From positions 1 to 64,000 of the forward strand of contig QWPT01000010.1 of NCBI GenBank assembly GCA_003671075.1: DNA of 64,000 nucleotides, given 5' to 3'. Source of the DNA: Planctomycetota bacterium (GTDB taxonomy: Bacteria > Planctomycetota > Phycisphaerae > Phycisphaerales > SM1A02). The position numbers were made by a program, and so were the translations under genes. Of this stretch, positions 43,054 through 48,819 are shown in pieces. Numbering within the stretch: the stretch's first letter is position 1; every line of letters starts with the position of its first letter. A model generated the notes under the pieces. It ran no database searches and had not been told where the DNA came from. It saw only the letters and a program-made list of their open reading frames with translations.

Positions 43054-44745
43054 ATGCGCGCGTTGATCCTGCGACTCAGCGCCGCTTCCCTCGCCTTGAT
43101 CGAATTGATCGCGCTGCTTTCAATCGGAACACTCGCGCGCGCTGACAACGCTGGATTCGCGCTTGCGCCCAAAGGCGCGGTCTTTGCCGTCGATGCGCGC
43201 GGCGTTGCTGATCTGCTCGAGGGCGACCGCGGCGCGCTCGTGCGCCCTGTCCTCGAGGCCTTCGCTGGTCCTGATGCGCTGGCGACCTTTGATTTGCTCG
43301 CCAAACGCGCGAACGCCCCTGGCGAGCGGCTCGCGAACGAGGTGTTCGGTGGACGCGTTGCGTTCCTGCTTCCGGCCGCAGCGGAAAGTTCGGCGTGGCT
43401 TCTTGGGTTTGAAAGCGACGACCAGCGTTGCCAACACCTTCTGCTTATGTTGAGCGCGAAACTGACCGCGCCGGGTAGGTATGACAGTGCGAGCGAGCAT
43501 CTGGCGCTGCGCCGAGTCGGTGGCTGGCTGCTCATCGCTCCTTCAAGCGCAGAAGGGCGCGCGTTGATCGATGCGTCGGCGCTGCGTGTTCCGGCGGAGG
43601 ATGCCAGCGAATCGCTCATCGGCGAACCACTCATGCAGGACTTGCTCGCCAGCGACGCATCGGTGCGGATCTTCATGCGCCATCGCGCGCCACTGGGCGG
43701 CGCAACCACCATCGCATTGCGCGGCAAAAAGCGCGGACTTCACGCCGAGATCGGTGGAAGTTACGACGCTCCTCCCCTCGGGCTCTCCCCTGGTCGTCAT
43801 GAACTCGATGCGCATCTGGTCCGCGCTTTCGAGGATCGCGCGGTGCTCGTGGTCTCGAATCCCGCGAACGGGATTCCTGGCCGAGGCGATGCGTTCTGGG
43901 TGGCCTTGCTGCCCGAGCTGGTTCCGCCGCCGGCAATGCGCGCGAATCTATCGGGAGAACGCGTGTTTCTTGTGGGCATGTCCAACGATTGCGACATGCC
44001 AGCGCTCGCGTGCGCGTGGCGTATCGAGGACGTCGAACAAGCTGAAGTCGATCAGGATCACTTCATGCGTGGCGTGTCCTGCGCGATCGGTCGAAGCGTC
44101 GAGCAGGGCAAGGTTTTACCGCCAAGCGGCGCTCCTCCGCGAGGACCGACCGTCGCGCAATCCACCAACGATCGGCATCCTGTTGCTCGTGATGTCGAGC
44201 CGGCTCATACGCATGAGTCCGATGCGGCGATGACGACGCGAAGTTGCGCGGAGCTTGGTCCGTTCGCCGACCGCTATCTCGGAACGCCCTTTAAACTCGG
44301 CCAATGGCAACTTTGCTGGAAGACGGTGGCAACGCCGTGCGGCGGCTGGCAGGTCTACTCCAGCGACCCGAATTGGTTGGCGAGCGTGGCTGAACGGCTG
44401 ACGGTTTCGTCGTGCAGCGACGACGTACGGATCGGCGCGGGCGGCATTGGCTTCTGCGACGGTCCGCGTGCCGCAACGCTTCTCCGCCGTTGGCAACCAC
44501 TGGCGGTTCCTGGTGGTCGTGACCGAGTCTCCAGCGGACTGGCAGCGGTGTCCCAGATGTTGGAGCGGATGGGCCGGATGCGATTTCGCTACGAACTCAG
44601 CGGCCCGAGACAAATCCGCGCCATCATCGACATCGAGCCACTTGGTCGTTTGTCTGAGACGCCGGGGAAAAAATTGGCAGCTCCAGTTGGTGACGCGCCT
44701 CTGGGTTCATCAAGCCAACCATCCCCAAAGGGCGCGCCGCGCTAA
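43054..44745 (+). CDS. Secreted hypothetical protein in sigma operon
   Basis: 563 residues. Signal peptide (about 1-30, ending near ARA-DNA). The mature part is mixed alpha/beta (FALAPKGAVFAVDARGVADLLEGD near the start), with several Cys in the C-terminal third and a Pro/Ser/Lys tail. I see no known catalytic motif; its layout loosely resembles DUF3352-type secreted proteins. It lies 9 bp after the anti-sigma gene and 7 bp before tilS, so it may be an envelope sensor or target of the sigma factor. ATG at 43054 preferred to TTG at 43051. Confidence 0.7.
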   Translation: MRALILRLSAASLALIELIALLSIGTLARADNAGFALAPKGAVFAVDARGVADLLEGDRGALVRPVLEAFAGPDALATFDLLAKRANAPGERLANEVFGGRVAFLLPAAAESSAWLLGFESDDQRCQHLLLMLSAKLTAPGRYDSASEHLALRRVGGWLLIAPSSAEGRALIDASALRVPAEDASESLIGEPLMQDLLASDASVRIFMRHRAPLGGATTIALRGKKRGLHAEIGGSYDAPPLGLSPGRHELDAHLVRAFEDRAVLVVSNPANGIPGRGDAFWVALLPELVPPPAMRANLSGERVFLVGMSNDCDMPALACAWRIEDVEQAEVDQDHFMRGVSCAIGRSVEQGKVLPPSGAPPRGPTVAQSTNDRHPVARDVEPAHTHESDAAMTTRSCAELGPFADRYLGTPFKLGQWQLCWKTVATPCGGWQVYSSDPNWLASVAERLTVSSCSDDVRIGAGGIGFCDGPRAATLLRRWQPLAVPGGRDRVSSGLAAVSQMLERMGRMRFRYELSGPRQIRAIIDIEPLGRLSETPGKKLAAPVGDAPLGSSSQPSPKGAPR

Positions 44746-44752
44746 GCGCTGC

Positions 44753-45790
44753 ATGCCATTGTCGACGCACACCGATCTTCCAATCAAGCCGTTGCGGGCC
44801 GAGTTGTTGCTGCGCGCGTCACGCCATAGGCTCGCGGCCGTTCTCGCCCGCGGTTTGCAGCAAGCGGAGGTTCCCCATGACGCGCCCGTTGTGCTCAGCG
44901 TGAGCGGCGGCGGTGACTCGATGGCGATGCTCGTGCTTATGGCGGCGCTGCGCGATCGCACCGAGGGCGGGTTGGCGAGTATGGCGGTGGTTGCGATTGA
45001 CCACGCAATTCGGGCGGAAAACGCAGAGGAAGCCCGTCAGGCGGTTGCGCTTGCTCGGCATTTGGGCGTGCTTGCTGCGGAGGTTCGCCGCGTCGAGGTC
45101 GCGCGCAGCGGAAATACGCTTGATGCTGCGCGAAACGCGCGACTTGCTGCGGTCCGCGACTTCGCGGCCTCGTGCAACGCAACCCATGTGCTGCTCGCTC
45201 ATCAGGCCGACGATCGTGCGGAAGGACTGCTTCTTGCGCTCGGGCGCGGCGCTGGAATCAACGCGGCGGCAAGCCTGTTGCCTGCTCGCGCGCTGAGCGA
45301 AGGACCAGGTGCGGGGCTCGTTCTCTGCCGTCCGTTGCTCGCGGCGCGACGGGAGGAACTGCGTGCGTTTCTGCGCGAAATGGATGTTTCTTGGCGCGAC
45401 GATCCGTCCAATGCGATGCGCGCGCGCGGTTCGATGCGAGAGGATCCGTCGATAGCCGCGTTGGTTGATGGAATTGCAACGGGCGCCGGAGACTTTCTGG
45501 AGGAAGCCGCTCAACTGCTCGCTTTGCGCGAGGATTTGCTCGATCAGGCGCTTCCACAGGGAGCAGTGGCGATTGCGCGTGCACGCTTCGACGCGTTGCC
45601 TCGGGCCCTACATGCACAGGCATTGATTCGGTTGGTCCGTCACGCGGGTTCGAGCGCAAGCAGGGTGACCATCGACGCGGCGGTTGCTTCAATGACAAGC
45701 TCCGATCGCACGCCGCGGCAGTATGGTTGTCAGTCGGGAGTTGTGCTCATGGTCGATGCGCGCGAAGTACGCGCGCTTACTTCTCGTTGA
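44753..45790 (+). CDS. tilS: tRNA(Ile)-lysidine synthase
   Basis: Modifies C34 of tRNA-Ile(CAU) to lysidine. 345 residues. PP-loop SVSGGGDSMAML (about 44-55), ATP-binding AIDHAIRAENAEEAR, LAHQADDRAEGLLLALGRG, and RPLLAARREELRAFL. Shorter than E. coli TilS (432), with a reduced C-terminal domain. Start ATG at 44753. Its last 14 bp overlap the opposing membrane-thioredoxin gene. Confidence 0.93.
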   Translation: MPLSTHTDLPIKPLRAELLLRASRHRLAAVLARGLQQAEVPHDAPVVLSVSGGGDSMAMLVLMAALRDRTEGGLASMAVVAIDHAIRAENAEEARQAVALARHLGVLAAEVRRVEVARSGNTLDAARNARLAAVRDFAASCNATHVLLAHQADDRAEGLLLALGRGAGINAAASLLPARALSEGPGAGLVLCRPLLAARREELRAFLREMDVSWRDDPSNAMRARGSMREDPSIAALVDGIATGAGDFLEEAAQLLALREDLLDQALPQGAVAIARARFDALPRALHAQALIRLVRHAGSSASRVTIDAAVASMTSSDRTPRQYGCQSGVVLMVDAREVRALTSR

Positions 45791-46694
45791 CGCAGTCGCC
45801 GCCGAACCGATCGGCAACGCAGGTAATCACGCCCTGCTCAACCTTCACCGTCATCGGCGGTGTGACGAGCCAAAGCGGTCCAGGTGGAAGTGTGTCGAAC
45901 ACGCACTGAGGACAATCGATCGGGCCGAGATCTTCCTGGCTGATGATGATGGCATCCTTGACCGGTGGTACCTCGATGGCGAACACCATTTCAAGCCTCG
46001 GCGCCGAGAAATCAGACTCGAAGATGGTGTGGCAGGCGTCGCAGAACGGATTGTAAAAAACAATGAATGCGGTCTGGTTGCCGATGCGCTCCACCACGGT
46101 CGGAAGGTAGGTGCCGAGGGGCGATTCAGACATGCGCTTGCCGATGTACCCCTTCATATCAAGGTCAATCGACATGGCGTGCGCCTTGGCTTCGGCCGCG
46201 CTGATCGTGTGGTCTGAGCGAAAGTCAGCGCGAGCGGAGAGGTGCGAGGCCGCGGTTCCTGCAGCGATCGCCGCAAGCGCTGACCATGCGGGCGAAAGTC
46301 CGCGGCGCGCATCGGCCCGACGAGGTTGCGCAGGAAGCTTGGCTGCGAGCACGATCGTTCCGATGGAAAACAGCATCGCCATTGCGGGCGCAACGACGGC
46401 GCCTTGACGAAGTCCCGCCGAAACACTGGCCAACGCAATGAATGCGAGCGTGACCCCGCCGGCCATGCTGACAATGCGCGTTCCCGCGGCGGCAATTCCC
46501 GCAGCGAGCGCAAACTCAAGAGCGACGATGAGGCGCGCCGAAACCTCCATCTCGAAGCCGAACAGGAATGCAAGCAATTGGCGCATTGGTTCGGGAGTCG
46601 ATTCAGGACCCGCCCACAGTTGGTATCCGCCGCACGCGCCATAAATCAGCGCGACAAGTAGGCAGAGAGATCGAGGAGCAGTGACTCGTTTCAT
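45777..46694 (-). CDS. MauE/DoxX-like membrane protein with four-cysteine thioredoxin-like module
   Basis: 305 residues. Four hydrophobic segments in the N-terminal half (about 8-160), similar to MauE/DoxX-type proteins, then a thioredoxin-like module with CDAC in FIVFYNPFCDACHTIF and a second pair DCPQC about 45 residues later. The same module occurs twice in the neighbour upstream. Probably a membrane-tethered thiol-disulfide protein. Its ATG is 3 bp after the neighbour's stop. Confidence 0.75.
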   Translation of the reverse strand: MKRVTAPRSLCLLVALIYGACGGYQLWAGPESTPEPMRQLLAFLFGFEMEVSARLIVALEFALAAGIAAAGTRIVSMAGGVTLAFIALASVSAGLRQGAVVAPAMAMLFSIGTIVLAAKLPAQPRRADARRGLSPAWSALAAIAAGTAASHLSARADFRSDHTISAAEAKAHAMSIDLDMKGYIGKRMSESPLGTYLPTVVERIGNQTAFIVFYNPFCDACHTIFESDFSAPRLEMVFAIEVPPVKDAIIISQEDLGPIDCPQCVFDTLPPGPLWLVTPPMTVKVEQGVITCVADRFGGDCVNEK

Positions 46695-46697
46695 GCT

Positions 46698-48299
46698 TTA
46701 TTTCCCAGCAAACTTGAGGCACGCTTCGAGCGCAGCCATATCTTCTGCATCGACCACCACGCACTCGATGACGCCATTGTTGATCGCAACAATCACGGGC
46801 GTACCGATCACATAGTTCGGTCCCTTGACCAGCGAAACTTTGACGCACTCGTCGCACGGATTGTCGAGCAGATTGTTTGGATCGGCGTCGGGAATGGCGA
46901 CAGCGAGCGTGCGCACGGGCAGTTTGCCGCTGAAGTAAGTCGTGAGCAACTCTTGGCAGTGGTCGCAATCTTCGCGGTAAAACACGATGATCCAGCGACC
47001 AGTGAGGAAGTCAGCGGGAACTCCGCCAGCGATCATGCGCGCGAATTTGTTTGCGGCGATCGGCTGACCAATCGCGCCAGGAAACTCTGCGATGTAGAAC
47101 GGTTCAAGTTTCGACGGCGGTCCGGGCCATGCGGAAATCTCAGGCTTTACTGGCGGCGCGACGCTCACGGTCGGCTCTTCGCCGAGGACGCGCTTCAGAT
47201 CGTCGAGCTTGTCCACATCAGGACAGACCGCCGTGACGATGCCGTCCTTCAGACGAATGACGGTCGGCGCCGTCACGAGATAGTTCGGTGAAGTCCCCGA
47301 CTGTCCCGCCTTCACCCGATAGAGCAGACGGCTCTCGCAACCCTCGCACGGCATCGCCAGCGGTTGGCCAGTGGTGTCGGGAATCGAAACTTTCAGTACG
47401 CGTTCCTTGCGTGGAGTGGCGAAATGAGCGCGGTAAAGCTCTTGGCAACGGTCGCAGTCTGTGCGAGAGAAGACCACGATCCAATCGCCGCGCTCGAGGT
47501 CATCGGGTAGCGGACGCTCGATGGCCAGCGCGAGTTTTTGCGCGCGAAACGGCTTGCCGACCCACTCGGGCCACTTGGTGAAGTAGTTCTTCTCATACTT
47601 CACCGGCGCTGCTGGCCATGGTCCGTCGAGCGTGCTTGGATCGGTCGGAGTCACAACGATTGGTGGTTTCGCCGCGTCGTTCGAGTCGTTTTGTACTTCG
47701 GGCGTCGGTATGGCGAAGATCGCCACTAGACCGATGAGTGCCGGAATTGCAATCGGGAGTCGCCCGCGCACTGCTTGGCGGGGAACGAGCAGCAGTGCTG
47801 ACGAAAGCAGCGCTGCATCGATAAGAAACATCACGCTGGCGGGTAGGCCAGCCTTGCCGAAACAGCCGCAACTTCCGGCAAGCGCTTCCTTGAAGCCTTC
47901 GCCCGCGTTGGCCTTGAGGCCCGCCTGCACCATGGCGATGAGCAGAATGATGCAGAACAAACTCAGCGTGGCGATGGCGATTTGCCGCGCCCAACGCGAG
48001 GTCAGAATGGCGAGTGCGATGAAGATCTCAACGCCGATGATCGCGCGCAGTGACCACTCGAGGAACGCGGTGGCGTCGACGGAGGTGCGGTCGATGATCG
48101 CAGTGATCGCCGCCAGGATGGGAGGCGGGAGCAGGAGGGGATTGAACTCCGCGGCCTTCACGAATGCGCCGTAACCGATCCAGCCAGCGGTGGCGACATG
48201 GAGCAGCAGCAGGGCGATGCGTTGCACGGGCGAGAGGTTGATGCGCGGCAGGTTGCCGTTGGGCGTGAAGGCAGTCGGTTGGTTCATCGGCAGGCTCAT
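46698..48299 (-). CDS. MauE-like membrane protein fused to two four-cysteine thioredoxin-like modules
   Basis: 533 residues. The N-terminal MauE/DoxX-like membrane part (about four helices to residue 200) contains GSCGCFGKAG, the SCGCFG motif common in MauE proteins. Module 1 (about 225-370): SRTDCDRCQELY, then PCEGC and TAPTVIRLKDGIVT. Module 2 (about 385-533): YREDCDHCQELL, then PCDEC and GTPVIVAINNGVIE. MauE relatives transfer reducing power across the membrane (family knowledge). Start ATG at 48299; an ATG at 48287 is also possible. Confidence 0.8.
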   Translation of the reverse strand: MSLPMNQPTAFTPNGNLPRINLSPVQRIALLLLHVATAGWIGYGAFVKAAEFNPLLLPPPILAAITAIIDRTSVDATAFLEWSLRAIIGVEIFIALAILTSRWARQIAIATLSLFCIILLIAMVQAGLKANAGEGFKEALAGSCGCFGKAGLPASVMFLIDAALLSSALLLVPRQAVRGRLPIAIPALIGLVAIFAIPTPEVQNDSNDAAKPPIVVTPTDPSTLDGPWPAAPVKYEKNYFTKWPEWVGKPFRAQKLALAIERPLPDDLERGDWIVVFSRTDCDRCQELYRAHFATPRKERVLKVSIPDTTGQPLAMPCEGCESRLLYRVKAGQSGTSPNYLVTAPTVIRLKDGIVTAVCPDVDKLDDLKRVLGEEPTVSVAPPVKPEISAWPGPPSKLEPFYIAEFPGAIGQPIAANKFARMIAGGVPADFLTGRWIIVFYREDCDHCQELLTTYFSGKLPVRTLAVAIPDADPNNLLDNPCDECVKVSLVKGPNYVIGTPVIVAINNGVIECVVVDAEDMAALEACLKFAGK

Positions 48300-48361
48300 C
48301 TGTGGATCATCGGTGGCTGATCGGTGGACGCGGCGGTCGGCGCGGCGGTTGGTTCATCGGC
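48277..48361. repeat. Direct repeat duplicating the start region of the MauE-thioredoxin gene
   Basis: The 16-bp string cggttggttcatcggc occurs at 48277-48292 (inside the gene, encoding M-N-Q-P on the minus strand) and again at 48346-48361 in the non-coding gap. It looks like a small duplication with slippage between. Confidence 0.7.
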
Positions 48362-48645
48362 GCAAGCGGTCGCGATTCTATGGGCGAAGCGGCGCGGGGT
48401 TCGGGTCGAGTAGACGGTTTGCCGCATCCAGTCGGCGTGCGGCGGCGAAATAGGGCGCGTGGTAGGACCGACGCGTTCACGAAACCCTCCATTGTTCGCG
48501 CCCGCCGCTCGCATTTGTGGGCGGGAGTCCCGTGGCCGTCATGAGGCCGGCATGAGGTCGGCACGGCTTGGTCATGGGGTTGACGCGGGAAGTCGCGGGA
48601 AAAACTGGCGCCCGCAAACGGGGCGGTCTGTGCGAGAATCAAACC
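48300..48645. other. Intergenic gap without a clear gene
   Basis: 346 bp, GC-rich, with short repeats of gcggcggt and tgatcggtgg near 48310-48350. Frames in both directions read as low-complexity Arg/Pro sequence. No convincing promoter or RNA gene. Confidence 0.5.
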
Positions 48646-48819
48646 ATGAAACTTTCGCTGTCCGGAGCGGGCACATCATCCGAATTGAAATGGGCGCAGG
48701 AGTGCGCGATGTTTGATGCGCTCCTTGCGGGGGCGGCTTCGATCAGGCTCGCCGAGGAGCGGATTGTGCTCGGTGCAGGCGATTGCATCGATGTTTTTGC
48801 GAGGGGTCGACGGCGATGA
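48646..48819 (+). CDS. Small protein, possibly META/HslJ-like C-terminal fragment
   Basis: 57 residues. It begins MKLSLSGAGTSSELK; its second half, ALLAGAASIRLAEERIVLGAGD, resembles the C-terminal strand pattern of META (HslJ) domains, but this is a weak match by eye. The stop codon overlaps the ATG of the next gene (ATGA), which supports translation. No Shine-Dalgarno. Confidence 0.5.
   Translation: MKLSLSGAGTSSELKWAQECAMFDALLAGAASIRLAEERIVLGAGDCIDVFARGRRR

Follow-up and report, generated by a model that had tools for sequence, protein, structure and literature searches.

A planctomycete gene pair that joins MauE-like membrane domains to thioredoxin-like modules with a second CxxC: a candidate envelope thiol-disulfide exchange system

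MauD is the thioredoxin-like partner of MauE, whose family (PF07291) is needed for the maturation of a disulfide-rich enzyme subunit. Human thioredoxin carries a Cys62-Cys69 disulfide, a second pair located after the strand that follows the CxxC helix; this pair is not a CxxC and is regulatory. In the fusions of VKOR with thioredoxin, according to the available excerpts of two papers, electrons pass from the substrate to the thioredoxin CxxC, on to a loop pair, then to the membrane CxxC and finally to quinone (PMC3800646, PMC3842002); excerpts of a third report that plant versions conserve four cysteines in their thioredoxin-like portion (PMC4555120). FetE (8t4c), a protein of the TlpA/ResA/CcmG type, has the active site CPSC, and the available excerpts of its description mention no second CxxC (PMC10783030). 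Here, we compare with these systems two consecutive open reading frames (ORFs), ORF1 and ORF2, found in 64,000 nucleotides of DNA from a Planctomycetota bacterium (Phycisphaerales, SM1A02; assembly GCA_003671075.1, contig QWPT01000010.1, positions 1 to 64,000), a stretch referred to as the window. Both encode MauE-like membrane domains fused to thioredoxin-like modules, each of which carries two CxxC motifs.

Like the VKOR-thioredoxin fusions (cyanobacterial VKOR, plant LTO1), the pair combines a membrane cysteine centre with an apparently outward thioredoxin-like domain. In contrast to them, its membrane part is MauE-like, with one conserved CxC and no second conserved membrane pair; there are up to two modules per protein, and the second gene has a membrane part devoid of the CxC. 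With MauE/MauD it shares a MauE-type membrane domain and a thioredoxin-like partner, but here the two are fused, the modules hold four to six cysteines each, and no methylamine-related family was found among nine neighbouring genes of the window searched in Pfam. Proteins of the TlpA/ResA/CcmG type, including FetE, have the fold and the first CxxC in common with the module, which possesses a second CxxC and a third pair besides. Human thioredoxin also holds a second pair within the fold, although one that is neither a CxxC nor fused to a membrane part. The parts of the system are known, whereas searches of the open-access literature found no description of the four-to-six-cysteine module, of its duplication or of a partner gene whose membrane part lacks the CxC, and nothing on MauE-thioredoxin fusions with two CxxC. 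With moderate confidence, we propose that ORF1 and ORF2 form a membrane-bound envelope thiol-disulfide exchange pair that probably works in the oxidising direction, a reading built on observed gene anatomy, conservation, fold class and co-occurrence.

ORF1 (protein P0001, 533 residues; positions 46698-48299) consists of a hydrophobic N-terminal part, the MauE-like membrane domain with a CxCFG motif, and two thioredoxin-like modules. It lies upstream of ORF2 (P0002, 305 residues; 45777-46694), in which a hydrophobic, MauE-like part without CxCFG is followed by a single module, module 3. The two genes are 3 nucleotides apart, and they and all features within them are on the minus strand. In the sequence, the CGCFG motif of ORF1 (C144 and C146; 47856-47870) falls in a loop (125-153) flanked by the called hydrophobic segments 106-124 and 154-172. 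Module 1 (P0001 residues 226-377; 47169-47624) has its first CxxC at C282 and C285 (CDRC; 47445-47456) and its second at C318 and C321 (PCEGC; 47337-47348). Module 2 (P0001 residues 389-533; 46701-47135) has them at C445 and C448 (CDHC; 46956-46967) and at C482 and C485 (PCDEC; 46845-46856), and its third pair, C513 and C527 near the C-terminus, lies within 46719-46763. In module 3 (P0002 residues 162-305; 45780-46211) they are C218 and C221 (CDAC; 46032-46043) and C261 and C264 (DCPQC; 45903-45914). The sequence-only reading had recognized the three modules with their two CxxC pairs and the fusion of two consecutive genes to MauE-like parts, both of which are borne out; it had not reported the third pair or the absence of CxCFG from the membrane part of ORF2. 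It had placed the second pair 40-50 residues after the first, as is the case in module 3 (43) but not in modules 1 and 2 (36 and 37). Similarly, the V-x-D/N-G-V/I strand it described is seen in the modules with DG (LKDGIV) and NG (INNGVI), but module 3 has QG instead (VEQGVI).

The modules, about 145 residues long, are homologous to each other: with ORF2 as a query over the whole genome, both ORF1 modules are found at expectation values (E) of 1.5e-5 and 1.8e-4, and G23, F52, C57, C60, C94, C97, P106, P113 and G121 are invariant in 11 aligned modules from four genomes. Therefore, the likeness among modules is not due to chance. P0001 and P0002 passed no cut-off in Pfam or NCBIfam, the curated Pfam thioredoxin cut-offs included, and among 24 modules compared with Pfam, Thioredoxin_2 matched two (best E 0.0084) and Thioredoxin_7 one. 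The first CxxC is present in all 209 modules read from the bacterial family of the window and in all 22 read from outside it, although modules without it may be under-found since the search profile itself contains the motif. The proline at the cis-Pro position (profile P121) is likewise kept in 209 of 209 family modules, the cis geometry itself being unseen. Such constancy of the first-pair cysteines and of this proline is as expected for an active thioredoxin site.

Module types differ in the third residue of their first CxxC. Among single-module ORF1 proteins, 89 of 90 have histidine there (CxHC, the active-site type of DsbA and PDI). In two-module ORF1 proteins, all 23 second modules have it but only 12 of the 23 first ones, and the window's own module 1 has CDRC. 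In ORF2 the residue is mixed (A 14, H 11, S 9, R 8, T 8, Q 5, D 3, L 2). This pattern suggests a division of labour. Both positions of the third, C-terminal pair are cysteine in 128 of 209 family modules, while the 23 first modules of two-module proteins have one of these cysteines (20 modules) or none (three); the third pair is probably structural.

A structure of module 2 was predicted with AlphaFold2 from an alignment of 11 sequences, with a predicted local distance difference test score (pLDDT) of 84.2 and a predicted template modelling (TM) score of 0.83. The model contains a strand (47-53), a helix (58-67) that starts from the first CxxC (model residues 57 and 60), strands 75-80 and 98-102, and, in the C-terminal half, strands 114-119 and 122-127 and a helix, 133-140. 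The second CxxC (94-97) lies right before strand 98-102, in a block of mean pLDDT 90 (residues 91-100). The top Foldseek matches of the model include FetE, PilB-N, ResA and CcmG (probability 0.96-1.00, for the first three mostly 0.98-1.00; TM 0.34-0.54), the best E being 1.4e-3, with none at or below 0.001. VIA-align gave DsbE-like 3gl3 as the best match (Z 9.4, root-mean-square deviation 3.1 over 114 residues), then CcmG, DipZ and ResA; over the DsbE-like, CcmG and ResA chains, Z runs from 9.4 to 8.2 and the deviation from 3.1 to 3.8. Z of at least 8 was reached by 51 of 1000 chains, and thiol peroxidases come only 1-2 Z below the top matches of the TlpA/ResA/CcmG type. VKOR-fused thioredoxins are not among the 50 VIA-align matches listed, which does not exclude a likeness to them. 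When a profile of 24 modules was compared with solved chains, the match to FetE (8t4c) covered most of the domain (E 0.0013). A PDI-type protein heads the list (E 2.6e-8), but its match is confined to the surroundings of its three CxxC sites. Judged from these models and comparisons, the module has a divergent thioredoxin-like fold, and its nearest type is probably TlpA/ResA/CcmG.

The membrane part of the window's ORF1 matches PF07291 weakly and below the cut-off (E 0.014-0.044). Of 12 sampled CxCFG-type membrane domains, eight from the family (the window included) and four from outside, PF07291 reaches ten with E no higher than 0.1 (best 1.2e-10), which suggests that the CxCFG type belongs with MauE. 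The C-G-C-x-G residues are invariant in 12 aligned membrane domains, which have no second conserved cysteine pair. PF07291 does not match the window's ORF2, nor, at E 0.1, any of nine sampled ORF2 membrane domains (out of 60); it is by profile comparison only, of the ORF2 type with the CxCFG type (probability 94.5, E 7.9e-8), that the former is homologous to the latter. VKOR (PF07884) and DsbB (PF02600) gave no match to P0001 or P0002 in Pfam at an E limit of 10, where weak matches were possibly filtered.

A CxCFG-type motif precedes the module in 113 reading frames of the family; in 61 others the upstream part is long but free of the motif, and in 12 it is too short to judge. The 61 comprise 60 ORF2 proteins and L167 (start 1762), which is lipoprotein-like with a long upstream frame and was not counted as ORF2. 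Since the label ORF1 was assigned by the presence of CxCFG, that ORF1 has CxCFG is true by definition. A non-circular test of the two protein kinds comes from the module tree, on which the CxCFG-less proteins form one clade (61 rows: 60 ORF2 and one short; support 96, starred), and from gene order: in 59 of 60 cases the ORF2 gene comes right after another module gene, downstream and on the same strand, and in the sixtieth (L043) the frames overlap beyond the rule of the script, yet both genes are consecutive.

A simple hydrophobicity scan calls six segments in ORF1 and four in ORF2, whereas about five are seen in each by eye. Charge and hydrophobicity suggest that the N-terminus is inside and the modules outside, the scan being ambiguous. 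Independent support for an external module comes from two genera, g51 and g56, in which, by eye, a lipobox precedes a module that lacks the second CxxC and makes up a protein of its own. These lone modules (L160, L161, L162, L169 and L139 in g51; L138 and L167 in g56) are found near ORF1- or ORF2-type genes.

P0001 finds matches in 36 of 61 near genomes, namely in 36 of 37 from the window's family (its own genome included) and in none of 24 from the other families of the order. The search with a module profile proposed from the sequence was run, and it matched 112 of 121 family genomes and, across the phylum, 45 of 392, ten of the latter being in the family. Modules were read in 114 family genomes (209 modules) and at 20 loci outside the family (22 modules), the outside loci being the only ones read from 35 genomes with a profile match. 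The second CxxC is present in 178 of the 209 family modules; 13 have at least one cysteine in the segment but no CxxC, and 18 have none. It occurs at least once in 99 of the 114 genomes, or 100 if the ORF2 of genome G066 is counted, so that the expected conservation of the second pair in relatives holds within the family. Across modules it follows the first pair mostly by 36 to 45 residues. Outside the family, it was found in one of 22 modules. On a module tree built with FastTree without the second-pair columns, in which few columns and long branches are flagged, its state changes about four times. Taken with the contrast between 178 of 209 and one of 22, this makes the second CxxC look like an addition to a wider fusion, made mainly in this family and followed by few later losses. 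The plain MauE-thioredoxin fusion is probably the wider, older form.

Some individual loci add to this picture of the family. The window's genome holds, on another contig, a plain MauE-thioredoxin paralogue (L106, 3929-5320, minus strand; G000:C95) with SCGCFGG and CNHC and no second CxxC, beside a gene that we take to be CutC-like. In seven modules (L061, L142, L145, L155, L165, L171 and L179), the first cysteine of the second pair is lost and the second kept, and an extra cysteine appears about nine residues on in GCDW or GCSW, perhaps a relocated disulfide. At locus L006 (CAMBUI010000039.1), ORF1 is 69-73% identical to that of the window. A search of plasmids found no match.

Among 61 genomes of the family, VKOR was matched in 25, DsbB in 13, DsbA in 33 and the module profile in 55. 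In the window's genome, which is 97.6% complete, there is no match to VKOR, DsbB or DsbA at E 0.001, and Thioredoxin_4 occurs below the cut-off only. In all, 19 of the 61 genomes lack matches to all three, although distant DsbA-like proteins would escape the thresholds used; 18 of the 19, the window's genome included, carry the module, and the nineteenth (G084), in which it was not matched, is 55% complete. Where every second CxxC is lost, DsbA is found in 12 of 13 genomes as compared with 18 of 42 others (p 0.003, kinship not considered). For this count, G066 was placed by hand among the genomes with a second CxxC because its ORF2 had been read (before the move, 12 of 14 against 18 of 41, p 0.011), and G061, G063, G068, G094 and G095, absent from the module table, were scored by eye. 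In several genomes (G035:C128, G065:C92, G097:C10, G022:C15 and others), VKOR and DsbA matches lie within about 1 kb on the same contig with equal open-frame length (458-693 codons); these are probably VKOR-DsbA fusions, some with two DsbA matches.

The exchange pair that we prefer could work as follows. The MauE-like membrane part, with its roughly five segments by eye, would place the C-terminal modules on the outer face, where the first CxxC of each module would be the redox site that exchanges disulfides outside the cytoplasmic membrane. The CxCFG loop of ORF1 is a putative membrane redox centre that would re-oxidise the modules, probably against quinone, by analogy with VKOR and DsbB and their thioredoxin-like partners. 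ORF2, having lost the loop, would exchange disulfides with ORF1 or with substrates and not with its own membrane part. The second CxxC may be an auxiliary redox pair that passes or holds a disulfide next to the first pair; we regard it as accessory, and a role in transfer, unproven, is preferred to one in structure. Export, the oxidising direction, the coupling to quinone and the part of the second pair in transfer are thus what we infer.

Several results weigh against this proposal, and some of them favour its rivals. The sequence-only reading suggested a relay in which electrons pass from the membrane domain through two disulfides. This idea is half supported: the MauE domain of ORF1 has CxCFG. 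However, 60 of 60 ORF2 proteins lack CxCFG and all 60 keep the second CxxC, as does a further ORF2 at a separate place in G066. A relay through a CxCFG centre inside ORF2 is therefore impossible, and nothing else speaks as strongly against a simple relay from membrane to module within each protein. In plain fusions elsewhere in the phylum, CxCFG and the first CxxC are retained but only one of 22 modules read has the second pair, which is thus not needed for membrane coupling as such, and within the family the second CxxC has been lost in whole clades in which the first CxxC stays, and CxCFG mostly too. The second CxxC could instead be a structural disulfide that pins an insert between strand 2 and the cis-Pro strand, with the modules being one-site thioredoxin-like domains. 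This possibility, which we find doubtful but take seriously, agrees with the loss of the second pair in several clades (31 of 209 modules) while the first is never lost, with its approximately four changes on the module tree, with its retention in ORF2 proteins devoid of the membrane centre, with the existence of a third pair of structural look, and with the structural disulfides that exported proteins often carry. On the other hand, a CxxC at a turn is less usual for a structural disulfide than distant cysteines, all three module types and 99 of 114 genomes have retained the second pair, and it stands directly before a strand in a well-modelled block. A metal site (zinc, iron or a 2Fe-2S cluster) formed by the four cysteines would fit the spacing between the two CxxC, which is like that of zinc-ribbon and rubredoxin-like sites; the occurrence of the cis-Pro-position proline in every family module, the persistence of the first pair wherever the second is lost, and the wide occurrence of the domain without the second pair make metal binding improbable. 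A full-length ORF1 model made from four sequences, which reached a pLDDT of 34.6 and was not used, gives the exchange pair no help.

The genomes also bear on the direction of the exchange. DsbD_TM is present in 56 of 61 and in 44 of 44 that are at least 90% complete, and being near-universal it makes a DsbD-fed reducing role possible. In a system of the ResA/CcmG kind, DsbD-type proteins would reduce the modules, which in turn would reduce the cysteines of cytochromes or copper sites; the closest folds are indeed ResA, CcmG and DsbE-like, and ResA and CcmG are reductases. We nevertheless hold this reducing alternative unlikely, given that the proteins have their own MauE domain with a conserved CxCFG, needless for a DsbD-fed reductase, that CxHC dominates in ORF1, and that no cytochrome-maturation family was found among the nine window neighbours. 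CxHC and the missing Dsb proteins make us lean to oxidation, whereas the likeness to ResA/CcmG and the general presence of DsbD lean to reduction. In a stronger form of the oxidising proposal, which we judge rather unlikely, genomes without DsbA, DsbB and VKOR would rely on the MauE-thioredoxin pair as their main means of disulfide formation, and the second CxxC would take the part of the VKOR/DsbB shuttle pair, passing disulfides from the membrane CxC of ORF1 to the substrate site and on to ORF2. VKOR or DsbB is present in 34 of 61 genomes, so the ORF1/ORF2 pair is not a simple replacement for them. DsbA is rarer in genomes with ORF2 (8 of 27) than in those without it (22 of 28; Fisher p 0.0004), and so is VKOR (6 of 27 against 15 of 28, p 0.026), but DsbB shows the opposite trend (9 of 27 against 3 of 28, p 0.055), and VKOR or DsbB taken together show no association (13 of 27 against 16 of 28, p 0.59). 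ORF2 changes only about three times on an RpoB tree of 51 genomes, with one to three independent pairs, and shared descent can therefore explain the pattern. The idea of ORF2 as a DsbA replacement was rejected, its p of 0.0004 not being independent on that tree, with a null result for VKOR or DsbB and the opposite one for DsbB. A redox partner gene for the pair was not found among the nine window neighbours searched in Pfam.

Those neighbours comprise a UbiE methyltransferase, a B12-binding domain, a sigma-70 factor, a PP-loop protein, an epimerase/DUF1731 protein, a photolyase, a hydrolase, an MFS transporter and one protein without a match. A survey of gene neighbours in other planctomycetes, also proposed from the sequence, was run by comparing neighbours in relatives without a family-library search. 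Several of them recur across the family but other genera differ, and the neighbourhood was set aside as a functional clue, since it gave no lead. The PP-loop neighbour, presumably tilS-like, recurs in relatives; in the window its gene (44447-45790, plus strand, as the longest ORF) overlaps the 3' end of ORF2 by 14 bases (45777-45790). Eight terminator-like sites were counted in 45600-48800, as compared with 3.1 expected from shuffles.

With their second CxxC, these thioredoxin-like domains make it possible to test directly whether a disulfide can be passed inside one fold. The clades that have lost the second pair and the clade of CxC-less ORF2 paralogues separate the roles of the second pair and of the membrane CxC. 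If the pair is oxidising, it would be a candidate answer to how disulfides are formed in planctomycetes in which DsbA, DsbB and VKOR are not detected. Should the stronger form of the proposal hold, with the second CxxC as a shuttle, the pair would count as a third kind of system for quinone-linked oxidative folding, and an independent one.

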